A DNA stretch of 64,000 nt from Leisingera aquaemixtae (lineage in GTDB: Bacteria > Pseudomonadota > Alphaproteobacteria > Rhodobacterales > Rhodobacteraceae), in the NCBI RefSeq assembly GCF_001458395.1, contig NZ_CYSR01000032.1, positions 1-64,000 on the forward strand, in the 5' to 3' direction. This document shows positions 42,933 to 64,000 of the stretch, one piece after another. Each line of letters starts with the position of its first letter. Position 1 is the stretch's first letter. The notes under the pieces were generated by a model. That model did not search any database. It had not been told where the DNA came from and was given only the letters and a program-made list of their open reading frames with translations. The translations under genes were made by a program, and so were the position numbers.

Positions 42933-43778
42933 TCAGCGGTTCAGGATCACCCGGTGGTAGCGGCCCATCAGCAGCAGCCCCAGCGCCAGCAGGGCCAGGC
43001 TGGTGAGCAGCACGTAGGTCACGCTGGCATAGGCGGCGGTATAAGTGGGGTAGAAGCCGGTGCGCATCAGCCCGGTGATATGCATCAGCGGGTTGTACCA
43101 CAGGATCTCCTGCGCCAGCGGCGGCAGGTCCTCATAGAGAAAGAGGACGCCGGAGGCGAGGAACAGCGGCCGGGTGATCACCGACCAGGCCACCTCCCAC
43201 AAGGGATAAAGCCCCATCAGCACGCAGTTCAGCGTGCCCACCCCAAGGCCCAGCACCATCGCCAGCGCCATCGCCAGCACCGCCGGCGGCAGGTCCAGCA
43301 CCGTGCGGCTGTCGATCACCATCAGCGTGCCGGAGAGCAGCAGCAGCGCCATCAGGCTGCCGGTCAGGCTGTTGAGGGCAAACCGCGCCAGAATCGCGTC
43401 CACCCAGGTCACCGCCGGGAACTGCAGCAGCGGCTTGGAGAAGTTCAGCGCCCGGGCGGTGGTATTGGCAATTGTGTTGTAGAGGTCGAACGCCAGATAG
43501 CCGGTGGCGTAAAACAACAGGAAGCTGGTGCCCAGCGACGGGCTGCGGATCACCAGCGAGAAGCCGAGGCTGAGGAACAGAATGGCCGCCAGCGGCTCAA
43601 GAATGGCCCAGAGATAGCCGCCGGGGGTGCGGCCGTAGCGGGTCGACATCTCGCGCAGCACCAGCGCCGCGATTGTGCGCAGGCTGGCAAAGCGGCGCGC
43701 GCGGGCGGCGGCGGGCGGCAGGGCGGGCATCTGGGCGGGAGGCAGGGCAGGGGCCGCTGCGGGCGGGGTGCTGGTCAT
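42933..43778 (-). CDS. kpsM: Capsule ABC transporter permease
   Basis: A 281-residue ABC-2 type permease. A Pro/Ala-rich N-tail is followed by LRTIAALVLREMSTRYGRTP, the conserved cytoplasmic segment of KpsM/Wzm. Six hydrophobic helices follow (LWAILEPLAAILFLSLGFSL through VLLTSLALLALGLLLMGRYH). YNPLMHITGLMRTGFYPTY is also typical. With KpsT it would flip a completed lipid-linked polysaccharide. The ATG at 43778 excludes a basic upstream extension. It is divergent from kpsE with only 91 bp between them, so expression is probably coordinated. Confidence 0.92.
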   Translation of the reverse strand: MTSTPPAAAPALPPAQMPALPPAAARARRFASLRTIAALVLREMSTRYGRTPGGYLWAILEPLAAILFLSLGFSLVIRSPSLGTSFLLFYATGYLAFDLYNTIANTTARALNFSKPLLQFPAVTWVDAILARFALNSLTGSLMALLLLSGTLMVIDSRTVLDLPPAVLAMALAMVLGLGVGTLNCVLMGLYPLWEVAWSVITRPLFLASGVLFLYEDLPPLAQEILWYNPLMHITGLMRTGFYPTYTAAYASVTYVLLTSLALLALGLLLMGRYHRVILNR

Positions 43779-43787
43779 GAATACCCA

Positions 43788-43816
43788 TTGTGAATATGCG
43801 CTGTGCAGGCGATAAT
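43788..43816 (+). promoter_or_regulatory. Putative sigma70 promoter of kpsE-kpsT
   Basis: TTGTGA (43788-43793) and GATAAT (43811-43816) are separated by 17 bp in the AT-rich 91-bp gap between kpsM and kpsE. The distance to the kpsE ATG is about 54 bp. Confidence 0.5.
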
Positions 43817-43869
43817 ATGAAAGAAAGACGAGGCAATTACAAACGGCTGCAGGCCGGGATAAGCAGATT

Positions 43870-45297
43870 ATGACACAGGATCGCCCGGCGGCGCGCCGGA
43901 AGGCTGCCGCCCACTTCCGCACCGGCCGCAAAAGCTCTGACACATCCGGCCCGGCAGAGGCGGAGGGCAGCGGCCCGGACCGGCCCGCCGCGCCCGGCCG
44001 GGAGGCCGCCAATGTGAAACAGCTGCCCGGCGCGCCGGACCATCAGGACGGTCCGGGCGGCAAGGACGCAGGCAAGAAGCTCCGGAAACTGCGCCGCAAG
44101 GTGCAGAAGGCCGAGGCGGCCCAAGCGGCGCTGGAGGCGCAGATGGCCGGGACCCCGGCCTATCCGGTGGCCCGGCCCGCGCATCTGAAGGGGCGCCATC
44201 GCGGGCTGATCGCCAGTTTCGCAGCCCTGGTGCTGCTGCCGCTGGCGGCGGCGGTGTTTTATCTGTTTGCGGTGGCCGAGGATCAGTTTGCCTCCACCAC
44301 CGGCTTCACCGTGCGCAGCCAGGAAAGCTCCAGCGCCAACGACCTCTTGGGCGGGCTGGCCAGTTTCGCCGGCAATTCCACCGCCTCGGACAGCGACATC
44401 CTCTATGAGTTCATCCAGAGCAAGGAGATGGCCGCGGCGGTCAGCAAGCGGGTGGACCTGCGCGCCCATTACAGCCAGCACTGGCCCGGCGACTGGGCAT
44501 TCTCGATCTGGCCCGATGCCACCCTGGAGGAACTAGTCTGGTTCTGGCAGCGCATCGCCCGCATCTCCTATGACAGCGGCTCGGGGCTGACCGAGGTGCA
44601 GGTCACCGCCTTTGATCCGCAGACCGCCCAGGCCATTGCCCAGGCCATCATCGAGGAAAGCCAGATCCGCATCAATGCGCTCAACGATCAGGCCCGCGCC
44701 GATGCGATGCGCTATGCCGAAACCGATCTGGAAGAGGCGGTGGAGCGGCTGAAAGCCGCCCGCGAGGAGCTGACCCGGTTCCGCACCCGCACCCGCATCG
44801 TCGACCCGGAGGCCGATATCCAGGGCCGCATGGGGGTGATGAACAACCTGCAGCAGCAGCTGGCCGAGGCCTTGATCGAATACGACCTGCTGGCCGGCAC
44901 GGTGGCGCCGGGCGACGTGCGGCTGAAGCAGGCGCAGCAGCAGATCGGCGTGATCCGCGAGCGCATCAACATCGAGCGCCAGACCTTTGCCTCCAGCAAC
45001 ACCGACACCGGCGGCGTCGGCGAGGATTACCCGACGCTGATCTCGGAGTTCGAGCGGCTGACGGTGGACCGGGAGTTTGCCGAGGAAACCTACCGCGCGG
45101 CGCTGACGGCGCTGGAGGCGGCGCGCGACGATGCCGCCCGCCAGAGCCGCTACCTGGCCACCTATATCAATCCGGCCCTGGCCGAGGAGGCGGAATACCC
45201 GCGCCGCTTCGTGCTCAGCGCGCTGGCCGGGCTGTTCCTGCTGCTCACCTGGTCGATCCTGGTGCTGATCTATTACTCGATCCGCGACCGCAGCTGA
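43870..45297 (+). CDS. kpsE: Capsule export inner-membrane protein
   Basis: A 475-residue polysaccharide co-polymerase of the KpsE class. A charged cytoplasmic N-tail of about 110 residues carries a coiled coil (KLRKLRRKVQKAEAAQAALE). A first membrane helix (LIASFAALVLLPLAAAVFYL) is followed by a periplasmic domain starting FASTTGFTVRSQESSSANDL. Long coiled coils run at about 270-390, and the second helix (FVLSALAGLFLLLTWSILVL) lies close to the C-terminus. It bridges the KpsMT transporter to the outer-membrane channel. KpsT is encoded 10 bp downstream. Confidence 0.92.
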   Translation: MTQDRPAARRKAAAHFRTGRKSSDTSGPAEAEGSGPDRPAAPGREAANVKQLPGAPDHQDGPGGKDAGKKLRKLRRKVQKAEAAQAALEAQMAGTPAYPVARPAHLKGRHRGLIASFAALVLLPLAAAVFYLFAVAEDQFASTTGFTVRSQESSSANDLLGGLASFAGNSTASDSDILYEFIQSKEMAAAVSKRVDLRAHYSQHWPGDWAFSIWPDATLEELVWFWQRIARISYDSGSGLTEVQVTAFDPQTAQAIAQAIIEESQIRINALNDQARADAMRYAETDLEEAVERLKAAREELTRFRTRTRIVDPEADIQGRMGVMNNLQQQLAEALIEYDLLAGTVAPGDVRLKQAQQQIGVIRERINIERQTFASSNTDTGGVGEDYPTLISEFERLTVDREFAEETYRAALTALEAARDDAARQSRYLATYINPALAEEAEYPRRFVLSALAGLFLLLTWSILVLIYYSIRDRS

Positions 45298-45961: not shown

Positions 45962-46084
45962 CGCTCAGGCGGCGCGGGCGCGGGAATCTGAAGCGGGGCG
46001 GCAAAGAGGAATTTATTTCCGCTGCCAGCTCCAGTATGCAGCCCCCAGTGATGATTGCAGGTGCCGGGCAAAGGAGTTTTACCG

Positions 46085-47914
46085 ATGACAAAGGATGTGG
46101 GGGCTGCGGGCAGCGCAACGGCGCTGCAGAGTCTGATGTGGCCGGAATTCGGCATCTGCACCGAACGCGACCTCTATCTGCGGGCGCAGGGGCCGGTGGC
46201 GGTGTCGCCGGAGCAGCGCGAGCTGCGCTTTGCGGCGGGCGGCCATGTGTCCTTCGGCAGCTGGTTCAATCTGTTCAACCTGGAAAAATGGCAGCGCGAA
46301 TGCGGGCTGCAGAGCCTGCAGCTGCAGCTTGAGGGCGAGGGCGCTTTTGAGGTGTCGGTGGTTCTGGCGCCGCGCGGCCGGTCCTGGGACCGGGTGGTGA
46401 GCCGCTATGCGGAATTCCCCGCGGACGGGCGGCTGGAGATCAGCCTGGACCAGATCCTGCAGCCGGGCGTCATGCCCGGGGTGCTGTTCTTCGAGCTGCG
46501 CGCGCTGGGGGCAGGGCGGCTGACCGGGGCCAGCTGGCAGACGCTGGACGCGCCGCGGCGGGCGCCGCAGCTGGCGCTGGCGGTGACCACCTTCAAGCGC
46601 GAGGCGGCGGTGGCGCGCACGGTGGAGCGGTTCTGCGCCTTCCGCGAAAGCTCCTGGATGAAGCCGCATGTGCAGATGATCGTCACCGACAACGGCCAGT
46701 CGGTGGAGCTGGCGCCGCAGGAAGGCGTCACCCTGGTGCCGAACGAGAACCTGGGCGGGGCAGGCGGCTTTACCCGCGGCCTGCTGGAGGCCCGCGCCCG
46801 CGGTGCCACGCACTGCCTGTTCATGGATGATGACGCCTCGATCCACATGGAGAGCCTGGAGCGCACCTGGATGATGCTGGCCTATGCCAGGGATCCCAGG
46901 ACCGCAGTGGCCGGCGCGATGATCAGCGAGCAGCACCGCTGGGCGATCTGGGAGAACGGCGCCCGTTTCTTCACCCGCTGCCAGCCGCTGCACATGGGCA
47001 CCGATCTGCGCGACGTGACCCGGATGCTGGCAATGGAGCATGAAGCGGCGCAGCCGGTGCCGGAGGATTTCTACGGCGGCTGGTGGTATTTCGCCTTCCC
47101 GGTGGCGCAGGCAGAGCACCTGGCCTTCCCGTTCTTCGTGCGCGGCGACGATGTCAGCTTCTCGCTGGCCAATGATTTCAACATCCTCACCCTCAACGGC
47201 GTGGTCTCCTTTCAGGAAAGCTTCACCGAGAAGGAAAGCCCGCAGACCTGGTACCTGGACCTGCGCAGCCACATGGCGCATCACCTGAGCCTGCCGCAGC
47301 TGGAGGTGGGCGCGCGCGGCGTGCTGAAGATCGCCGCCTGGTTCTTCCTGCGCAACCTGCCGCGGATGCATTACGACACCCTGGCCGCGATCAACCTGGC
47401 GGTCGAGGATGTGATGAAGGGGCCGGAGTTCTTTGACGAGCACGCCGATATGGCCGGGCGCCGGGCTGATATCAAGGCGCTGACCAGCACCGAGGCCTGG
47501 CAGGATCTGCACCCGCGCCAGGCGCTGCCGCCGGTGCGTGAGCAGCCCCCCGCGGCCTGGAAGCGGCATCTGATGAAGCTCAGCCTCAACGGGCTGCTGA
47601 TCCCGGGCTATGCCCGTTTGGGCCGCAAGATCACCCTGGAGGCGCAGCACCGCAGCCACATCGGCTATGCCTGGGGCGCGGCAGAGATCACCTGCCTGAA
47701 TGCGGAGCGCACGAAATTCTATACCGTGCGCCATTCCAAGGCCGCCGCCTGGCGCGAGCTGAAGCGGTTTGCCAAAAACGCCCGCGCCTTTTTGAAAGAT
47801 TACGACCGGCTGTCCGCCGCCTACCGCAGCCGCTACGGGCAGCTGACCAGCGAAGCCTACTGGCAGGACAAGCTGGGGTTTGCCGCATCGCAGGAGCGCC
47901 AGGCGGCGGAGTAA
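46085..47914 (+). CDS. GlfT2-like galactofuranosyltransferase
   Basis: A 609-residue multidomain enzyme close in size and order to mycobacterial GlfT2. Residues about 1-160 form a beta-sandwich (FGSWFNLFNLEKWQREC, DRVVSRYAEFPADGRLEISL). The GT-A domain follows (ALAVTTFKREAAVARTVERF, TDNGQSVELA, ENLGGAGGFTRGLLEARARG) with the metal-binding FMDDDASI at 248-250 and FVRGDDVSFSLAND near 355 holding the catalytic Asp. Residues about 420-609 are helical. GlfT2 builds alternating beta-1,5/1,6 galactofuranan from UDP-Galf; glf at 53185 supplies that donor. AAGGAG precedes the ATG by nine bases. It follows kpsT by 123 bp. Confidence 0.85.
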   Translation: MTKDVGAAGSATALQSLMWPEFGICTERDLYLRAQGPVAVSPEQRELRFAAGGHVSFGSWFNLFNLEKWQRECGLQSLQLQLEGEGAFEVSVVLAPRGRSWDRVVSRYAEFPADGRLEISLDQILQPGVMPGVLFFELRALGAGRLTGASWQTLDAPRRAPQLALAVTTFKREAAVARTVERFCAFRESSWMKPHVQMIVTDNGQSVELAPQEGVTLVPNENLGGAGGFTRGLLEARARGATHCLFMDDDASIHMESLERTWMMLAYARDPRTAVAGAMISEQHRWAIWENGARFFTRCQPLHMGTDLRDVTRMLAMEHEAAQPVPEDFYGGWWYFAFPVAQAEHLAFPFFVRGDDVSFSLANDFNILTLNGVVSFQESFTEKESPQTWYLDLRSHMAHHLSLPQLEVGARGVLKIAAWFFLRNLPRMHYDTLAAINLAVEDVMKGPEFFDEHADMAGRRADIKALTSTEAWQDLHPRQALPPVREQPPAAWKRHLMKLSLNGLLIPGYARLGRKITLEAQHRSHIGYAWGAAEITCLNAERTKFYTVRHSKAAAWRELKRFAKNARAFLKDYDRLSAAYRSRYGQLTSEAYWQDKLGFAASQERQAAE

Positions 47915-53106: not shown

Positions 53107-54348
<1,242 letters not shown>

Positions 54349-55145: not shown

Positions 55146-56669
55146 TCACCCCAGTGCGTTGTCCAGAAATTGCTTGATCCGGCCTTTCAAAAGCCCGTGC
55201 CTTTGCAGCCATGCCCAGCAGGCATGCATGTTATGGTCATCATAAAACGCGCGGACGGAGTCCGCCTGTTCAAACCGCGGGCGGAAGTTTGCGTCGAAAA
55301 CCGAACCGGCGCCGGCATGGTTCTCGATGTAGAGGCTGTTTGGGGCGCTGAGACTGGGCCGCAGATCCATAACGACCTGATGCGGGGCAGTGATCAGCCG
55401 GTTGTAGAAATACCAGATTGCCTTGCTGCTCAGGCCCTGTTTGATGGTTCCATAGTCCGGGTAGTACAGGATCGTGCTGAGCCCCATGGCACCAGACGCG
55501 GAAATTTTCTGGCCGAAATAGACCGCACTGATCGCCGCAGCACTCAGCCCGGCAGTGACTGAGCGGTTGTAGCCATGCTGTGCCAGGAAGGCGGCAAGAT
55601 TGGCTGCGCTTTGGGCGGGATTTCCGGCTGACGCGCCGAAGCCGGCAGTCGCCCCCAGGCCGGATGCGTCCCGGATCATCAGGAATCCCATGCCGTTTTG
55701 CAAAGCAAGTTCTGCAAAATCCTGGAAAACTTCCAGGCTGTTTTCCTGGCCCATTGAATCGAAAAAGATCATGCAGACGCCGCTGCTGCCTTTGATATGC
55801 ACGGCGTCCAGCACAGGGATGTGCTCGAAGGGGAGGGCCGCAAAAGAGCCGTGGATCTGCTCCCGGCCACTGAACAGCAGGCACCAGTCCGCCAAGCGCT
55901 TGAACCGGTCTGACAGCTGCAGCCTGCCGCTTCGCAACCGGCTCAGGGCGTCCGCGGCAGCCTCCTCCTGGCCGGATCGCAGCGCGGTTTCCAGCCGGGC
56001 CGCCAGCGCGGCTTCTTCAAACCGGGTGCCGTCCAGCACCTGATGCAGCGGGCTGAGGCAATGCTCGGCGAAGCGGCCGGCAAGATACAGGTTGGCCAGA
56101 AATTCGAAGATGACCGCCGGCGGCGCCCGTCTCAGGCTGCCGTCGTCCTGAAGGGAGCACAGGAAGTTGTGGGCGGCGCCCCATCGCTGGTCCGCCTCCA
56201 GAACGCGGTGCCAGGACCGGATGGTATCGGCCTGGCTGCATGCCAGCCGCCCGGCCTTTTCGAACCAGGCCCGGGCCTCGCAGAAGCGCCCTTCCCGCTC
56301 GCAGATCAGCCCCCGCAGCACGGGCATGATCCCCTGCGCCTGCGGAGCGCTTTCGATCAGGCGGTTCACAGCTTCCTCTGCCAGGCCCGGGTCCGCCTCC
56401 GCCAGGCATTTGACGAGCAAATGGGTCATGCCGAGCTGGCGCTGCGCCGCCGCCGCCTGAAAGGCTTCCAGAGCGGCAGAGGGGTCCGGCAGCTCCGGCC
56501 GGGTGTCCCTGCCGGCCTGCAAGGCCGCCTGCACAGCCCCCGCCAGATCCTGCGCCCCGAGCAGGCAAAGAGTGGTCACGGCATCCTGGACGGCCGGCGT
56601 CTTCCGCTGCCGGAACCGGTCCAGGATTTGCGCTTCGTGCGGCCGGAGCCGGGCCTGCAGATCCTGCAT
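55146..56669 (-). CDS. Unrecognised protein: TPR-like N-terminus, hydrolase-like C-terminus
   Basis: A 507-residue protein I cannot name. Residues 1-260 are helical with Ala/Leu repeats that look like degenerate TPR units (CEREGRFCEARAWFEKAGRL). Residues about 280-507 have alternating strands and helices: GVCMIFFDSMGQENSLEVF, GFLMIRDASGLGATAGFGAS, SVTAGLSAAAISAVYFGQKI and LSTILYYPDYGTIKQGLSS. The G-L-S-A-A segment sits where an alpha/beta hydrolase nucleophile elbow would be, but the second Gly is missing. It is the last gene of the leftward glycan-modification operon, so a deacylase or lyase-like role on the polymer is possible but speculative. Confidence 0.7.
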   Translation of the reverse strand: MQDLQARLRPHEAQILDRFRQRKTPAVQDAVTTLCLLGAQDLAGAVQAALQAGRDTRPELPDPSAALEAFQAAAAQRQLGMTHLLVKCLAEADPGLAEEAVNRLIESAPQAQGIMPVLRGLICEREGRFCEARAWFEKAGRLACSQADTIRSWHRVLEADQRWGAAHNFLCSLQDDGSLRRAPPAVIFEFLANLYLAGRFAEHCLSPLHQVLDGTRFEEAALAARLETALRSGQEEAAADALSRLRSGRLQLSDRFKRLADWCLLFSGREQIHGSFAALPFEHIPVLDAVHIKGSSGVCMIFFDSMGQENSLEVFQDFAELALQNGMGFLMIRDASGLGATAGFGASAGNPAQSAANLAAFLAQHGYNRSVTAGLSAAAISAVYFGQKISASGAMGLSTILYYPDYGTIKQGLSSKAIWYFYNRLITAPHQVVMDLRPSLSAPNSLYIENHAGAGSVFDANFRPRFEQADSVRAFYDDHNMHACWAWLQRHGLLKGRIKQFLDNALG

Positions 56670-56719: not shown

Positions 56720-57943
56720 TCAGCCGGTCTGTTCGATTGTCTTCCGGGCCCGCTGGATGTCGCCGCTGCTGATCAGCGTGGCCTCCAGCGTGCCGCCGGC
56801 AGGCAGGTCCGGCAGCCGTGCCGAAAATGTCCAGCTGCCGGATCCCGCATACCGCGCTGCCACGTCCGGCCGGGGCGGGCCAAGCACCGGGATGCCGGCC
56901 AGCCCGGCTGCGGAGGTGGAAATCACCAGGCTGGGCGGGGTTGCCCCGGAGGGGGCCACGTACCAGCCGCTGGCCTGCAGCAGACGGCTGCCGCGGTCAT
57001 AGCTGGCCGAGGAGATTGCCAGCCGGAGGCCTTGGCTGTTGCGCTGGCAGGCGTTGTCGAACACATCCTGGGCCGTGGCCTGGAAGGAGGGGGCGACCGA
57101 GCGGAAGTCTTTCCAGGCGCCGCCGCCGAAATGCACGATCTTGGGGGCTGTGCCGGTCAGGCGGTTGATGAAATGGCCGGGCCGGCGCTCTTCAGCCAGC
57201 GCCATGCCGCCGCCGCACAGATGCAGGATGCTGTCTTCGGGGAATTCGCAAAACAGCTCCGGCCGGGTTGCGCGGACCACCCGGGCCAGGTCCTGGTCAT
57301 GCCAGTTGTGGTCGCGGATCAGGCTGGGCGGGAGTTCCGGGAAACGGGTGCGGATCTCTTCGAACAAATCCTTCATCACATCCGGCTGCGCGGTGATGAA
57401 GCCGATATTCACCTCGTGCAGGCCGCCGTCATAGGCCCAGTCGCCCGTCAGCTGGCGGTAGCGCAGATCCTTCTTCCACAAGCTGGTGCCGGGGTACATC
57501 GGATTGGCCTCGGCCGTATAATTGATGCAGCCGTTGGAGGCCTGCTCGAACAGGCCGCGGACATCGTCCTGGAAGTACAGATCATTGTCGCAAACCGCGA
57601 CAGCGTCATAGTCCTGCCCGTGGAGAGCGTGCCATTCGAGGTAGATCAGCTTGCTCATCCGCTTGTTGCGGTAGGCGTGAAAGGCGGCCAGCGCTTCGGC
57701 ATCGGTTTTCCCGGGGAACAGCCGCCGCCATTTCATTTTCCCGTCAGCCCAGGCCATCGGGCTGACATGGGCGCGGATGCCTTCCGCTTTCAGATAGTCC
57801 CGGGCATCGCTGCTGAGCTGGGTCGACAGCACCCAGATATCCTGGTCATAGGCGCCGCGCCCGGGCGCGCGCAGGGTCTGCGTCATCAGGCTGGAGGCTG
57901 CCAGTTGAGGCGTGTTTGCGGTGAATAAAAGAGCGGTCTTCAT
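56720..57943 (-). CDS. GT-A-fold glycosyltransferase (GT8-like)
   Basis: A 407-residue protein. The N-terminal two thirds resembles nucleotide-diphospho-sugar transferases: MKTALLFTANTPQLAASSLM, KRMSKLIYLEWHALHGQDYD, the metal-binding AVAVCDNDLYFQDDV near residue 117, YDGGLHEVNIGFITAQPDVM and IVHFGGGAWKDFRSVAPSF. The HFGGGAWK segment corresponds to the terminal His motif of GT8 enzymes. The last 100 residues look like an unrelated beta-sandwich. Donor and acceptor are unknown. It lies between the methyltransferase and the TPR-like gene on the same strand, with 27 and 50 bp gaps. Confidence 0.72.
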   Translation of the reverse strand: MKTALLFTANTPQLAASSLMTQTLRAPGRGAYDQDIWVLSTQLSSDARDYLKAEGIRAHVSPMAWADGKMKWRRLFPGKTDAEALAAFHAYRNKRMSKLIYLEWHALHGQDYDAVAVCDNDLYFQDDVRGLFEQASNGCINYTAEANPMYPGTSLWKKDLRYRQLTGDWAYDGGLHEVNIGFITAQPDVMKDLFEEIRTRFPELPPSLIRDHNWHDQDLARVVRATRPELFCEFPEDSILHLCGGGMALAEERRPGHFINRLTGTAPKIVHFGGGAWKDFRSVAPSFQATAQDVFDNACQRNSQGLRLAISSASYDRGSRLLQASGWYVAPSGATPPSLVISTSAAGLAGIPVLGPPRPDVAARYAGSGSWTFSARLPDLPAGGTLEATLISSGDIQRARKTIEQTG

Positions 57944-57970: not shown

Positions 57971-58699
57971 TTACCGGATTTCGCAGGCGGCGCGCTGGCC
58001 GCAGACGGCAATCCAATGCGCCTTCAGCCGGGTGCGGTCAAGAAACTCGGCAAACGCCCGGCGCTCGTGCTGCTCGAAGTTGGGATAGCAGAAGTATTCA
58101 TCGAACAGCAGGATGCAGCCGGGGCGGATCTTGTCTTCCAGCGCCTGCAGCACGGTCGCCGTGGAGCTGTAGATGTCGCAGTCCACATGCATGAAGCTGA
58201 CGTGGTCAATGCTGTCCGCATAGGCGGGCAGGGTGTCCTCGAACCAGCCCGGATGCAGCCGCACATTGGCCGCGACGGCCGGCGGCTCGCCCTGGCGGTC
58301 GAAATCGAACGGCTGCCAGCCGCGCCATTCCTCGGGCAGTCCGGTGAAACTGTCGAAGCCGTCAAAGATGGTGCCGGGCCGGGCCCGGGCCATCAGGTTG
58401 AGGGTGCGGCCGGAGTAGACACCGAACTCCGCATGGGCGCCGCTGCGCCCGGCCTTGGACAGCGCATAAAGCAGGATGTCGTCGGAGCGCTCGAACAGCA
58501 TTGCTTCGGGCATCTCGCTCTGAACGATTTCCACCGTGCGCTCCAGCGCCTTGTCGGACAGCGCCCGGAACAGCGCATGATTGCTGTTGGGGCGGGTGTC
58601 GAGCCAGGCGCTTACCTCGGGATAAGGCCTGGCTGAATGTTCTGCGATCTGGTCCAGCCGCTGCAGGATCTGGCCCAGCTTTTCATCGAGGTTCGTCAT
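57971..58699 (-). CDS. TylF/MycF-type O-methyltransferase
   Basis: A 242-residue SAM-dependent methyltransferase. HAEFGVYSGRTLNLMARAR is the SAM-binding motif I near residue 90. IFDGFDSFTGLPEEWRGW, FMHVDCDIYSSTATVLQALE with the metal-binding Asp residues, and CILLFDEYFCYPNFEQHE complete the pattern of macrocin-type O-methyltransferases. These methylate sugar hydroxyls, so it may cap or decorate the glycan. GGAG sits eight bases before the ATG. The upstream GT/DUF115 gene ends 63 bp away. Confidence 0.92.
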   Translation of the reverse strand: MTNLDEKLGQILQRLDQIAEHSARPYPEVSAWLDTRPNSNHALFRALSDKALERTVEIVQSEMPEAMLFERSDDILLYALSKAGRSGAHAEFGVYSGRTLNLMARARPGTIFDGFDSFTGLPEEWRGWQPFDFDRQGEPPAVAANVRLHPGWFEDTLPAYADSIDHVSFMHVDCDIYSSTATVLQALEDKIRPGCILLFDEYFCYPNFEQHERRAFAEFLDRTRLKAHWIAVCGQRAACEIR

Positions 58700-58762: not shown

Positions 58763-61375
58763 CTATTTGCGTCCCAGCACCGCATCCAGATCCGCCCGCG
58801 GGAAGATCTCCAGCTTGGAAAACCGGCTGGCGTTATAGACCTGCACACCGATTGAATCGCAGTAGTCCTTGGCAAACTGGTAGGAATGCTCCAGCCGGTC
58901 CAGCACCGGGTAATGCCATTTCTCGCCGGGCTTGCGGTAGTCCGGGTGGAAATGGTTCACCTCGCCTTCCGACACCAGCGCCCCGTCCTGCTTGGTCTTG
59001 GGTTCCACGTAGGAATGGTCCAGGCCGAGGATGTAGATCTCCCGGAACCCCATATGCACCGCCATCTGCAGCATGGAATAGGTGATCGTTGACCCCCAGC
59101 AGATGCCCTTGGTGAGATCGGCGGAGAACTCCCGGAAGGGCGAGCGGTTGTCGGCCGGCGGCAGCCAGCGGGCATAATGGTGGTTGGCCTGGCGCGGCAG
59201 GAAGGGCAGCATGTGATGCGGGAAGATCTTGGTGGTGCGGTCCACCGCCAGGATCTCGGAGCGGCAGTTCCGCGCCACCAGCAGATCCTCAACCGAGTAG
59301 AAGGTCGGCCGCCAGTCCGTCTCGTCAAAGCAGAGATAGATCTTGTTGGCGGCAAAGGTGACCTCGTTCTTCAGCAGCTCGAGGTCGCTGACCGTGAGGC
59401 TGGGGCCGTTGCCCAGCACAAAGCAGCGCTGGCCCAGGTAGCGGTTGCGCATGGCGTTCAAGAAGGCGTTGTCTTCATCGGTGACCGGGGCGCGGGCGCG
59501 GCCAGCAGCCCCGGCCTGGGCCTGCTGCAGCGCTGCCATCGCCCGGCGCATGTCGCGCAGCGCAGTGCTTTCCTGTGCGGCGGCGGCCAGGCGCGGCGCT
59601 TCGCCGGGCTTGCCGTAGGTGGCCCAAAACGCCTGCGAGGTCAGATGCGCCCGGGCGGCCTGGTAGCACGGCCCCAAGGCCGGCAGCCGGGCGGGAATCC
59701 GGCGGCGCAGGCTGCGCAGGGCCAGCATCTGACGCAGGGCCCGGCGCGAGTCGCGGGTCACGGTGAAACCGACGCCTTTTTCCGGATTCCAGTAGCTCAC
59801 CTGCTTGCCGCGGCGGCAGTCGGCGGGCTTGGAGGGACGGGTGGTGTCGATGGCCACCTGCTCCTTCAGCGGCAGGAAATGGTTGTTCCAGCTGCGCCCG
59901 TTCAGCCAGCGGGTGCGCTCCGAGGCGGGCGGCTCAAGACCGTTCACCACGGGGGCGCCGCCGGGCGGCTCTGGCATCGGGCTGTTCTTTTCCTGCGCCA
60001 CAATGCGGAAAATCCCGGCCAGAATGGCATCCTCGTTGCGGACCAGGTAGTCCGGCCCCTGCAGGAAATGCGTCATCGCATCCAGCAGCAGCTGGGCGTG
60101 CTCGTATTTGCGGGCTCCGACAAAGCCGCGCACCAAGCGGTCGAATTCTGCCGCGAAACCGTCCGGATCGTCCAGCCGCCCCTGCTGCGCCAGCAGCACC
60201 CAGCGGTTGCGGAAGCGGAAGTACTGCATGGCGGCGGAATATTTCTCTTCGAAATCGTCGTGCAGCACCCAGAAGGAGAAGGGGATCACCAGTTCCACCC
60301 CGGCATCGCGCAGCCGCAGCCCGTATTCCACATCATCCATCTTGATGAAGAACGGATAGGGCAGGCCGATGCGGTGGATATCCGCCACGGCCACGCAGCT
60401 CCACCACCAGCCGGTGCTGTCGGGGCGGCGGTCCATGCGGATGAAGGCCGGAATGTCGGCCGTGTCCAGCCCGGCGCCGAGGGCGCTGTCGCTGGGATGC
60501 ACCGAGCCGCGGTACTTGTGGCCGAAGCAGGCGCTGCGGCGCGGGATCCTGTTCTGCGAGGAGGCCGGGTACATCGGCGCGCCCACGTGAAAGCCCGGCT
60601 TCAGGAAGCGCATGAACGCGGTGTTGCGGGCAAACATTTCGGGATGCAGGTAGATATCGTCGTCCAGAAGGCAGACGTGGGTGAAGCCCTGTTCCGCTTG
60701 CGCCCCGTAGCAGCTTTCATAAATGCCGCGGCCGAACCCGCCGGCGCCGCCGGTATTGCCGTTGGCAAAGACGGACACATTGGCGTCCGGCTGCACCCCG
60801 CAGGCGCTGTCCTCGCTGCCGCTGCCATTGTCGACAACCGTCAGATGCGCTTCGTTCCCGGCCTGGCGGCGGCGGATGTAGTCGCGGAAGACATCGGCGT
60901 TGTGCTGAACATATTCCGCCCGCTTGAAGGTGCAGAAGATGTAGTTGATGCGCAGATGCGGGCTGACGGGCTGGTCATCGGTGACAAAATCGATGTCATA
61001 GCTGGAGCCCGGGGCGGCATGCTCGACCTCAGGCAGCAGGGCGCCGTCCAGATCCGCCAGCCGCAGCGGCGGGAAAACCTGGGTGCCGGGGCCGCTCTGC
61101 TGCAGCCGCGCCAGAACGGTGACGGTGCCGTCGCCCGCGATATGGCGCAGCGCCACCCGGACCTCGCCCGAGCGGACCACCAGCCGGGTGCCGAGCCAGT
61201 TCAGGGTGGTGGCATGGCGCCAGGCATCCAGGTCAAAGGCGTTGACAGCGCTGGCTCCGAACTCCCGGACATGGCGCTGCAGCGGGTAAATTCCCCGGAT
61301 CGGAGAAAACCGCTCCTGTTCCGGGTGTTTCCGGGACGCTGCATTTGCGGGTGAAACGGAGGGGGCAATATTCAT
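58763..61375 (-). CDS. GlfT2-like glycosyltransferase fused to DUF115 domain
   Basis: An 870-residue two-part enzyme. Residues about 20-160 form a GlfT2-like beta-sandwich (FDLDAWRHATTLNWLGTRLV). Residues about 165-440 are a GT-A domain: YIFCTFKRAEYVQHNADVFR, VVDNGSGSEDS, NTGGAGGFGRGIYESCYG, the metal-binding VCLLDDDIYLHPEMF near 236, FFIKMDDVEYGLRLRDAG and VLHDDFEEKYSAAMQYF. Residues about 640-860 are a DUF115 (MptE/MAF-like) domain: CFVLGNGPSLTVSDLELLKN, NKIYLCFDETDWRPTFYSVE, CWGSTITYSMLQMAVHMGF and LGLDHSYVEPKTKQ. DUF115 proteins are thought to transfer nonulosonic or other sugars. The fusion suggests two successive transfers. It overlaps the SMP-30 gene by four bases. Confidence 0.85.
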   Translation of the reverse strand: MNIAPSVSPANAASRKHPEQERFSPIRGIYPLQRHVREFGASAVNAFDLDAWRHATTLNWLGTRLVVRSGEVRVALRHIAGDGTVTVLARLQQSGPGTQVFPPLRLADLDGALLPEVEHAAPGSSYDIDFVTDDQPVSPHLRINYIFCTFKRAEYVQHNADVFRDYIRRRQAGNEAHLTVVDNGSGSEDSACGVQPDANVSVFANGNTGGAGGFGRGIYESCYGAQAEQGFTHVCLLDDDIYLHPEMFARNTAFMRFLKPGFHVGAPMYPASSQNRIPRRSACFGHKYRGSVHPSDSALGAGLDTADIPAFIRMDRRPDSTGWWWSCVAVADIHRIGLPYPFFIKMDDVEYGLRLRDAGVELVIPFSFWVLHDDFEEKYSAAMQYFRFRNRWVLLAQQGRLDDPDGFAAEFDRLVRGFVGARKYEHAQLLLDAMTHFLQGPDYLVRNEDAILAGIFRIVAQEKNSPMPEPPGGAPVVNGLEPPASERTRWLNGRSWNNHFLPLKEQVAIDTTRPSKPADCRRGKQVSYWNPEKGVGFTVTRDSRRALRQMLALRSLRRRIPARLPALGPCYQAARAHLTSQAFWATYGKPGEAPRLAAAAQESTALRDMRRAMAALQQAQAGAAGRARAPVTDEDNAFLNAMRNRYLGQRCFVLGNGPSLTVSDLELLKNEVTFAANKIYLCFDETDWRPTFYSVEDLLVARNCRSEILAVDRTTKIFPHHMLPFLPRQANHHYARWLPPADNRSPFREFSADLTKGICWGSTITYSMLQMAVHMGFREIYILGLDHSYVEPKTKQDGALVSEGEVNHFHPDYRKPGEKWHYPVLDRLEHSYQFAKDYCDSIGVQVYNASRFSKLEIFPRADLDAVLGRK

Positions 61376-62277
61376 GATGGCACTCGGGGCTTTACAGAAG
61401 GGTCAGGCTGGATGCGGGGTTCGGGGCGGCCACGCGCGGGAGTTGTCACGGCAAAGGTCCGGCCGGCGGTTTGCTGCCAGCCTGCCGGGTCCGGCGGCAG
61501 CTTCTGGGTGGCGGTGGTGACGTAGAGGGTGGTGAGATCCGCCCCGCCGAAGGCCGGGCAGGAGGTGTGGCCGGTGGGCAGCTCCACGGCGCTCAGGAAG
61601 GCGCCCTCGGGGCTGTAGCGGGCCACCCGCGCCGCGCCCCATTGCGCGTTCCACAGGCAGCCCTCGGCATCCACCACGGCCCCGTCCGGCTTGTGCTCCG
61701 GTGTGCTGTCCGTGGCGCGCAGGTCAATAAAGACGGTCTTGTCCCCGGCCGGCCAGCCGGTGTCCGGGTCGACCGGCTGGCGCCAGATGATCCGGGACCG
61801 GGTGTCGCTGTAATAGGCGCAGGCGCGCGCCTGGTCGAAACAGATCGCATTCGGGGTGGTCAGGCCGCTGTCCAGCACCCGCAGCTCGCCCCGGGCCCAG
61901 CGGTACAGCCTGCCCAGGCCCGGCTCGCCCGCCTTGCCCATGGTGCCCATCCAGAAGCCGCCCCAGGGGTCGGCGCGCCCGTCATTGGAGCGGGTTTCCG
62001 GCCGGTCCGCCTCGATTTCGCACAGCATTTCCTCGCGCCCGGTCTCCAGGCCGAACCGGCTGAGCCCGGTTTCGCTGGCGATCAGCAGGTGGGTTTCATC
62101 GATCCAGCCCGCGGCGCTCACATGGCGGTCGAATTGCCATTCCAGCGGCCGGGAGCCCAGGCGCGACAGCAGCTTGCAGCTCATGATGTCGAACCAGAAC
62201 AATTGCTGGCGCTGCGGATGCCAGAGCGGGCCCTCGCCCAGAACGCAGCTGCGGCTGTCAAAGACGGTGGCGGTCAT
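61372..62277 (-). CDS. SMP-30/gluconolactonase-like protein
   Basis: A 301-residue six-bladed propeller protein. VLGEGPLWHPQRQQLFWFDI contains the metal-binding Glu of the family, and RSNDGRADPWGGFWMGTMGK carries the Asn-Asp metal-site segment. NAICFDQARACAYYSDTRSR and HKPDGAVVDAEGCLWNAQWG provide the remaining ligands. Family members hydrolyse sugar lactones. Both ends overlap neighbours by ATGA, so it is tightly embedded between two GT/DUF115 genes. That is an unusual place for a lactonase, unless an aldonolactone is part of the glycan pathway. Confidence 0.88.
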   Translation of the reverse strand: MTATVFDSRSCVLGEGPLWHPQRQQLFWFDIMSCKLLSRLGSRPLEWQFDRHVSAAGWIDETHLLIASETGLSRFGLETGREEMLCEIEADRPETRSNDGRADPWGGFWMGTMGKAGEPGLGRLYRWARGELRVLDSGLTTPNAICFDQARACAYYSDTRSRIIWRQPVDPDTGWPAGDKTVFIDLRATDSTPEHKPDGAVVDAEGCLWNAQWGAARVARYSPEGAFLSAVELPTGHTSCPAFGGADLTTLYVTTATQKLPPDPAGWQQTAGRTFAVTTPARGRPEPRIQPDPSVKPRVPS

Positions 62278-64000
62278 GCGGTTTCCTTTGCCGGGGTTCC
62301 CGGCGGGAACAGGGTGTCGAAAGCGGCCCGTTCGAAAACCTCGAGCCGGGTCTGGCGCGAGGCATTCAGAACCCGCACGCCGCGGGCTTCGCACCGCGCG
62401 CGGGCGCGGGCATAGGAGACCTCGAGCACCTCCAGGTTCGGCTGGTGCCAGCGCTCGCCGGTCTCCCGGTAGCCGGGGTGGAAATGGTTCTGCTCGCCCG
62501 CATGCAGATACGTATTGCCCTGTTTGACCTTGGGCAGCACGTAGCTGTGGTCGAGCCCGATCAGGACGATCTCGGCGCAGCCCATGAACAGCGCCATCTG
62601 GATCTGGCTGTAGACGATGGTCGAGCCCCAGCAGATGCCGTGGCTCAGATCCTCGCTGAACGCCGGGAAGTCCGGGTCCGACAGCGGGTCTTCAAAGGAG
62701 CGCGGCGGCCGGAAGGGCACAAAGACGGTGTCGGCGGCGTGATAGCCGAAGTCGCGCACATTTGCCGGAAAGATCTTCAGGCTGCCTTCCAGCCCGGCAA
62801 TCCGCTCCCAGTTGTTCTGAATCACCAGGTGGTCTTCGACCGAGTAATAATCGGGGCGCCAGCAGGTGTCTTCGTAGGCCAGGTAGATCTTGTTGGATGC
62901 AAAGGTGACGCTGTTGTGCAGCCTGTCCAGATCGGAAACCCGCAGGCTGGGCCCATTGCCGACGATCACGGCCCGGGCGCCCTTGTGGCGGTTGCGCAGA
63001 ACGCTCAGCAGGATCTGGCTGGCCCGGTCCTGGTCCGCATGGGCCCGGGCGGTATCCAGCAGCCGGTTGTGCGCCAGCTGGTCCTCAAGCTGGCGCAGCT
63101 GCCGCGACCTGGCGTTCTGTTCGGCCCGGTGAAACGTGTCGGCCTTGAGGTGCAGCGCTGCCAGTTCGCGCTGCCGCTGCAGGGCCGTCTCCGCCCGGCC
63201 GGGGCGGACCAGGGCGGGATCTGCCGCGGGCTGGTTGCCGGCCATCTGCGCCCAGCAGGCAATCGTGGCCAGGCGCGCCCGGGCGGCTGAGCAGCGCTGG
63301 ACCAGCTGCGGCAGGCGGCTGAGCGCCCGCAGCTGCCGGCGCAGGCGGCGCTGCAGCCGCCAGGAGCGGAACGGCGGCCGCAGGGGCGGGCGCGGCGGCC
63401 GGGCGGCAGGCAGGACCATTGCTTCCGGCCCGGCCAGGAAGGCATCCATCTCATTCATCAGCGCCCAGGCGCCGCCGGCGCCGCCGGCGCCGCCGGCGCC
63501 GCCGGCAGCGGCGCGGCTGCGCACCGCGGCAGAGAATTCGGCCCGCAGCGCGTCCGGATCCGCCAGCTCTCCCTGCAAGGCCCTGAGGGTCAGCTGCGCG
63601 CCATAGCCGGGCGGGGCCTGATCCGCGGCCGGCTGGAAAGACAGCGGAGCGGCCAGCTGCAGCCCCGCGCGCTGCAGGCGGGCGCTGTATTCGCGTTCTG
63701 CGGCCGGGACCGGGAACGGGCAGGGCAGCCCGTGGCGGTGAATGCTGCGCGCATCCAGGCAGCACCAGTCCCAGGGCGCTGTTGCGGCGGTTTGTGCCCT
63801 GCGCATCAGCGCCGCCGGATCCGCGCCATCCGCGCTGCCGTCCGCGGGCGGCGCACAAAGAAAGGCTTCGGGCCGCAGGAAGCGCATGAAGGCGGCCGCA
63901 TGGGCGAACATTCCAGCCTGCGGCCGCCGCCCCGCGCGCAGCAGGCAGAGATGGGTGAAGCCTTCTGCCGCCAGGCTGCCGTAGCAGGCCTCGTAGAGGC
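62274..64000 (-). CDS. GT/DUF115 fusion paralogue with degenerate GT domain, 5' end outside window
   Basis: The open frame continues past position 64000, so the N-terminus is missing; 575 codons are present. It aligns with the protein at 58763-61375: LYEACYGSLAAEGFTHLCLL matches IYESCYGAQAEQGFTHVCLL. The metal motif DDD is RAG here, KMDDVEYG is PAAEREYS and the HDDFEEKY block is absent. The DUF115 part is well kept: AVIVGNGPSLRVSDLDRL, NKIYLAYEDTCWRPDYYSVE, ICWGSTIVYSQIQMALFMG and LGLDHSYVLPKVKQ. Thus the GT-A domain is probably inactive while DUF115 may work. A four-copy GCCGCCGGC tandem repeat (63471-63506) encodes a Gly/Ala linker. It overlaps the SMP-30 gene by four bases. Confidence 0.85.
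   Translation of the reverse strand, partial: LYEACYGSLAAEGFTHLCLLRAGRRPQAGMFAHAAAFMRFLRPEAFLCAPPADGSADGADPAALMRRAQTAATAPWDWCCLDARSIHRHGLPCPFPVPAAEREYSARLQRAGLQLAAPLSFQPAADQAPPGYGAQLTLRALQGELADPDALRAEFSAAVRSRAAAGGAGGAGGAGGAWALMNEMDAFLAGPEAMVLPAARPPRPPLRPPFRSWRLQRRLRRQLRALSRLPQLVQRCSAARARLATIACWAQMAGNQPAADPALVRPGRAETALQRQRELAALHLKADTFHRAEQNARSRQLRQLEDQLAHNRLLDTARAHADQDRASQILLSVLRNRHKGARAVIVGNGPSLRVSDLDRLHNSVTFASNKIYLAYEDTCWRPDYYSVEDHLVIQNNWERIAGLEGSLKIFPANVRDFGYHAADTVFVPFRPPRSFEDPLSDPDFPAFSEDLSHGICWGSTIVYSQIQMALFMGCAEIVLIGLDHSYVLPKVKQGNTYLHAGEQNHFHPGYRETGERWHQPNLEVLEVSYARARARCEARGVRVLNASRQTRLEVFERAAFDTLFPPGTPAKETA
63471..63506 (+). repeat. Nine-bp tandem repeat in coding sequence
   Basis: GCCGCCGGC occurs four times exactly. 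On the coding (minus) strand it gives a Gly/Ala repeat in the degenerate GT part of the fusion protein. Copy number may vary without a frame change. Confidence 0.9.

Follow-up and report, generated by a model that had tools for sequence, protein, structure and literature searches.

The stretch of DNA analysed here (the window, 64,000 nucleotides) comprises positions 1-64,000 of contig NZ_CYSR01000032.1 (94,002 bases; genome of 4.6 Mb) from Leisingera aquaemixtae, and includes on its minus strand most of a gene for a 771-amino-acid (771-aa) fusion protein (visible part 62274..64000). The protein consists of an N-terminal GlfT2-like galactofuranosyltransferase module, which is catalytically dead as judged by its motifs, and an intact C-terminal DUF115/MAF_flag10 domain. 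Based on motif losses, conservation, selection, fold similarity and gene neighbourhood, it is on balance probably a glycosyltransferase (GT) with a single activity, in which the DUF115 domain would be the working half, using a sugar activated by cytidine monophosphate (CMP), next to a dead GlfT2-type half. An earlier note on this DNA had already described a dead glycosyltransferase module joined to an apparently functional DUF115 domain, and both the motif loss and the DUF115 conservation agree with this description. Within the window the gene is recognised by its open frame (62274-63998, 574 codons visible, 5' end open) and its orthologues. The missing 5' end, which the note had advised retrieving, was obtained from the contig and completes the gene at 62274-64589. 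The frame opens with GTG at 64589, with an ATG three codons further in; this start is unsure because a near-identical plasmid gene is annotated 43 codons later.

The loss of the active site is seen most directly next to an 870-aa paralogue encoded two genes away (58763..61375, minus strand), which has intact GT-A motifs and a DUF115 domain of its own (around 58766-59473) and shares 34% identity with the 771-aa protein in a BLAST alignment. As the note had reported, the paralogue carries LLDDDIYLHPEMF, KMDDVEYG and VLHDDFEEKY, while the 771-aa protein reads LLRAGRRPQAGMF and PAAEREYS and has no corresponding His. The DxD site reads RAG (63930..63938, minus strand; DDD at 60656-60664 in the paralogue) and the catalytic DD site reads AE (63696..63701, minus strand; DD at 60332-60337), and no intact DxD, DD, GGxGG or WW motif is present in the GT half. 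In an alignment of six fusions and 25 stand-alone GlfT2-like proteins, all 25 stand-alone relatives and both intact fusions have DDD at the DxD site. The four dead-GT orthologues read RAG, PAG, AAG and HDA there, and a restored motif, which the note had named as damaging to its proposal, is found in none of them. At the catalytic DD site they read AE, AR, QD and AA, with genome G112 retaining one Asp beside a gap, and the DD, GGxGG and WW motifs are also gone from the orthologues. The His following DD is absent from all four dead-GT proteins, so the lost His segment described in the note is confirmed as an absence; as evidence for a dead GT it is weak, because several stand-alone relatives carry Gln at this position, which is not conserved family-wide. 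According to the accessible part of PMC12269835, mutation of DxD or DD abolishes activity in PamC1 and PamC2 of the GlfT2-type group, and the accessible part of a docking paper (PMC6863818) names D256 and D372 among the GlfT2 active-site residues.

As judged from aligned columns, the damage is confined to the GT-A module and the helical domain behind it, the beta-domain being spared. Of 20 GT-A columns invariant in the 25 stand-alone proteins and kept in both intact fusions, 12 are lost in all four dead-GT proteins and three kept in all four; with columns at least 80% conserved and kept in both intact fusions, 18 of 32 are lost and five kept in all four. By the latter criterion, seven of eight beta-domain columns are kept in all four and none is lost in all, and for the helical domain two of seven are kept in all and two lost in all. 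The N-terminal beta-domain (around 64224-64556, outside the window) keeps the family consensus, which is retained in 34 of 40 cells (10 conserved columns across the dead-GT clade). The GT-A module, with boundaries set by hand on alignments, spans residues 123-340 and is visible at 63570..64000 (minus strand), reaching contig position 64223. Deletions shorten its end as well as the helical domain (63249..63569, minus strand), which is GlfT2 domain-3-like in the paralogue and holds a GGA repeat of variable length. They are strongest in genome G374, where the last part of GT-A and nearly the whole helical domain are missing. Clade-specific conserved residues were gained in only 4 of 161 columns of the GT-A remnant. 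The linker that follows (63009..63248, minus strand) is longer than that of the paralogue, has 11 of 58 columns conserved in this clade only and is modelled as a single long helix in the orthologue of Leisingera ANG-M7. By sequence, the paralogue is similar to the GlfT2 proteins of Nocardia (E 2.9e-21) and M. tuberculosis (E 1.4e-16); for the 771-aa protein no GlfT2 sequence match was found with an E-value of 1 or lower. When the ANG-M7 orthologue was modelled, the best Foldseek match was GlfT2 (4fiy; E 3.9e-11), though with a TM-score of only 0.20 over the whole chain.

The DUF115/MAF_flag10 domain (PF01973; 62277..63008, minus strand, with GNGPS at 62946-62960) retains its motifs as the note had stated, 18 columns being invariant over 14 sampled domains including that of the 771-aa protein. 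Its PF01973 match in hmmscan, at 32.3 bits, falls slightly short of the 34.6-bit cut-off, and that in the genome search, at 35.5 bits, exceeds it; DUF115 calls are weak in three genomes. Profile matches were obtained to CstII (E 4e-7), Cst-I (3e-5) and Maf (0.0025), and to an archaeal pterin pyrophosphokinase at 0.12, and the likeness to CstII and Maf is found by sequence and by model. CstII has a catalytic His. An invariant NHF-type His is present in the DUF115 domain, and the CstII profile alignment stops before the catalytic-His region of CstII. In 13 of 15 genomes a cytidylyltransferase gene is located no more than 17 kb away, and it is this gene neighbourhood that suggests a CMP-sugar as the probable donor. 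For DUF115 domains in clusters of this kind, the locus suggests that the donors are likely to be CMP-sugars.

The gene does not behave as a pseudogene. Decay of the whole gene, which the note had named as a possible objection, is not seen: the frame is free of stops and frameshifts in five sequences, i.e. the four genomes, representing three genera, and the L. aquaemixtae M602 plasmid record NZ_CP081063.1, and the ratio of nonsynonymous to synonymous rates (omega) is well below 1. The comparison of GT and DUF115 parts proposed in the note was made by pairwise codon likelihood. Between the window gene and its ANG-M7 orthologue (G010), omega is 0.105 for the beta-domain, 0.18 for GT-A, 0.29 for the helical domain, 0.13 for the linker and 0.056 for DUF115, values that are rough because synonymous divergence (dS) is about 2 and near saturation; two more distant pairs reach up to 21. 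The corresponding values for the paralogue pair are 0.052, 0.057, 0.18, 0.11 and 0.036. The DUF115 domain is strongly constrained. The helical remnant of G010 and G374 (32 codons) gives an omega of 0.73, indistinguishable from neutral. The M602 orthologue, the only unsaturated comparison and one with small counts, is 98.6% identical, with 10 synonymous and two nonsynonymous changes and one GGA length difference of six residues, located in the dead half (around 63486-63506). GT-A and the helical domain together account for seven synonymous changes and one nonsynonymous change (P 0.001-0.002 under neutrality), and constraint still acts on the GT-A remnant. A comparison of the two intact fusions (58763-61375 and L018 7008-9614) gives an uneven dS, 1.73 for the beta-domain, 0.59 for GT-A, 0.31 for the helical domain and 1.06 for DUF115, which could reflect recombination.

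Over matched stretches, the orthologues are 63% (G010), 54% (G112) and, in two stretches, 68% and 51% (G374) identical to the 771-aa protein (range 51-68%). The fusion gene occurs in 2 of 21 genomes of the genus, and a match spanning the N-terminal part into DUF115 in 3 of 394 genomes of the family, the present genome being counted in both cases. The gene order dehydrogenase, fusion, SMP-30-like is found in all four genomes (recognised from translations outside the present one). In a DUF115 tree (20 rows) the four dead-GT proteins cluster together (99/99) beside two intact fusions (joint fork 90/92), and in a tree of the N-terminal half (31 rows) they do so again (100/99; joint fork 100/100); both trees are midpoint-rooted, with long branches flagged in each. 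The same motifs are lost, each differently, in open frames, and the loss is therefore probably old and common to the clade. The simplest reading would be one fusion, one duplication and, before the genera diverged, one loss of the galactofuranose (Galf) active site; spread of the cluster from genus to genus and independent losses are alternative histories that could also apply. Of the four genomes, only the two from Leisingera were seen to carry the intact copy, and a fusion with intact motifs was not found in G112 and G374, which are draft genomes of 30-40 contigs. In both of these, the contig with the dead-GT gene also encodes a stand-alone GlfT2-like protein, which could supply the Galf activity.

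Based on these observations, the working part of the protein would be the C-terminal DUF115/MAF_flag10 domain with its CstII/Maf-type fold, using a CMP-activated sugar donor that the operon's cytidylyltransferase would produce. The N-terminal half would have descended from a GlfT2-type transferase using uridine diphosphate (UDP)-Galf, with the GT-A site already lost when the sampled clade began to diversify; what may be kept as a fold or docking module is the beta-domain together with part of the GT-A shell, the remainder being trimmed. The paralogue, having both sets of motifs, might act as a polymerase that alternates between adding Galf and adding the CMP-sugar, and the dead-GT copy would add the CMP-sugar only, most plausibly starting or ending chains. 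This last role is perhaps analogous to that of the transition transferases of A. pleuropneumoniae, which prime the chains of other polymers (PMC11666461, as far as its accessible part describes them); a capsule transition transferase is defined by placing the first residue on the lipid linker for a polymerase. A two-headed enzyme with intact motifs and its one-headed derivative lie two genes apart, with orthologues trimmed to differing degrees, and the system allows tests of how a polymerase can give rise to a starter or finisher enzyme and of why a dead glycosyltransferase module is kept. A more specific version can be put forward tentatively: after duplication of a two-headed polymerase-type enzyme and loss of the Galf-adding active site from one copy, the dead head might be a chain-binding or oligomerisation handle kept by selection, which would enable priming, capping or timing of a Galf-containing polysaccharide by the sialyltransferase-like head.

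The role that the earlier note gave to the dead half is doubtful, whether as a scaffold, allosteric or acceptor-binding partner or, most strongly put, as one member of a heterodimer with the paralogue. The retained beta-domain consensus with its low omega and the shortage of nonsynonymous changes against M602 speak for it. In the accessible part of PMC11666461, an inactive Cps7A mutant of another capsule system still stimulates its polymerase, and an effect of a dead module is therefore conceivable. However, the paralogue was not found in two of the four genomes with the dead-GT gene, the G374 deletions are large, the helical remnant of G010 and G374 is indistinguishable from neutral and the GT-A remnant has gained few conserved columns of its own. 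An obligate heterodimer was rejected because no intact fusion was detected in the draft genomes G112 and G374, and pairing with the paralogue is not supported as a general role. The proposal of the note is thereby supported in part: it was right on the dead module, unproven on its role and, if an obligate pair was meant, unsupported.

It is unlikely that the N-terminal half is a pure relic, with fold enough against aggregation and heading to deletion. The deletions do differ in extent among the four orthologues, the GT-A omega is roughly three times the value in the intact paralogue and clade-specific conserved GT-A residues are few; however, the consensus seen in active relatives is preserved in the beta-domain and the frame is open in three genera. 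The scaffold and relic views both concern the dead half, and either can hold together with the one-activity reading. That the DUF115 domain has another nucleotide-dependent activity, like the archaeal pterin pyrophosphokinase, and transfers no sugar is quite improbable, since CstII, Cst-I and Maf all give better profile scores and the gene sits in a polysaccharide cluster. Highly improbable is a GT-A half that is altered rather than dead, i.e. a metal-independent transferase with another donor: the ANG-M7 model retains a GT-A-like core and the metal-independent GT-A enzyme 4ayl is among the matches, but the orthologues share almost no new residues, DD, GGxGG and WW are lost, the remnant is poorly modelled (block mean pLDDT 31-79) and the alignment behind the model included the intact paralogue, biasing it towards GT-A.

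Dead glycosyltransferase partners are known in animals, e.g. chondroitin polymerizing factor, and two-module polysaccharide polymerases are already known. The GlfT2-type UDP-Galf transferases (GT2) and PamC1/PamC2 of Kingella share the layout of beta-domain, GT-A and helical domain; unlike GlfT2, the 771-aa protein lacks DxD and DD and carries DUF115. Maf flagellin glycosyltransferases and the CstII/Cst-I sialyltransferases are alike in the DUF115/MAF_flag10 fold and GNGPS, but have other accompanying domains, and no flagellin context was seen around the fusion gene. In the accessible part of PMC7387560, ORF4 of the E. coli K15 capsule is a predicted 3-deoxy-D-manno-oct-2-ulosonic acid (Kdo) transferase with a Maf-like fold and proposed CMP-sugar use. 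It is likewise a Maf/CstII-like protein in a polysaccharide cluster, but has its own open reading frame, with no GlfT2-like fusion described in that part. WbbM, in which two transferase domains in one chain make a Galf repeat (PMC12269835, accessible part), is the likely model for the paralogue; its domain families are different, and the 771-aa protein has one dead module. CpsA and CpsC are one-activity enzymes that prime chains for the nearby two-activity polymerase CpsD (PMC11666461, accessible part); they belong to unrelated families, and the 771-aa protein would derive from a two-headed architecture by active-site loss. Among the literature matches listed for GlfT2 and galactofuranosyltransferases DUF115 was not found, which is no claim that the fusion is unpublished.

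DUF115 domains also occur in other settings. G112 (L040 5856-6851) and G374 (L041 2851-3792) each have, a few kb away, a second DUF115 gene of 313-331 aa that is unfused to GlfT2. In other genera of the family (L042-L046), DUF115 is part of 788-1180-aa proteins with other partners, and two of the five match glycosyltransferase families weakly in Pfam. One scan found 48 loci with DUF115-like domains on uncultivated viral contigs (L092-L139), which added alignment depth only.

The contig is probably a plasmid because the M602 plasmid record (92,969 bases) is near-identical (97-99% over long stretches) and the window encodes a RepA-type initiator and a ParA-type ATPase. The paralogue was not found in the M602 record, an absence not used here because 17.9 kb of the window are missing there, which may well be an assembly break, a deletion being the alternative. 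The circular record begins (window 43964) and ends (window 61845) inside genes. A natural loss of the paralogue in M602 was considered and dropped, since the end of the record falls within the SMP-30-like gene and its beginning within a different frame.

Around the fusion gene, a 2-hydroxyacid dehydrogenase gene ends three bases upstream, and the ATG of the SMP-30/gluconolactonase-like gene (61372..62277, minus strand) overlaps the stop of the fusion gene (ATGA); the SMP-30-like gene overlaps the paralogue start likewise. A TylF-like methyltransferase gene (57971..58699, minus strand) follows downstream of the paralogue. The cluster also encodes a UDP-galactopyranose mutase, the source of UDP-Galf (53185..54348, plus strand; PF03275, E 2.3e-80), a stand-alone GlfT2-like galactofuranosyltransferase without DUF115 (46055..47914, plus strand; PF17994, PF00535), an ABC-2 type exporter membrane protein (42933..44012, minus strand; PF01061), a rhamnosyltransferase-like protein and two proteins without a Pfam match at E 0.001 (55146-56669, 507 aa; 56720-57943, 407 aa). 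Upstream of the fusion gene, the cytidylyltransferase gene of the same operon lies at contig 65533-66198 (PF02348) and bears a distant likeness to PseF (81.9 bits, the cut-off being 205.7). The upstream genes also include an inositol-monophosphatase-like one, a GmhA-like SIS gene and one with a weak match to a methyltransferase; a Gfo/Idh-type gene, identified from the M602 annotation, comes next.
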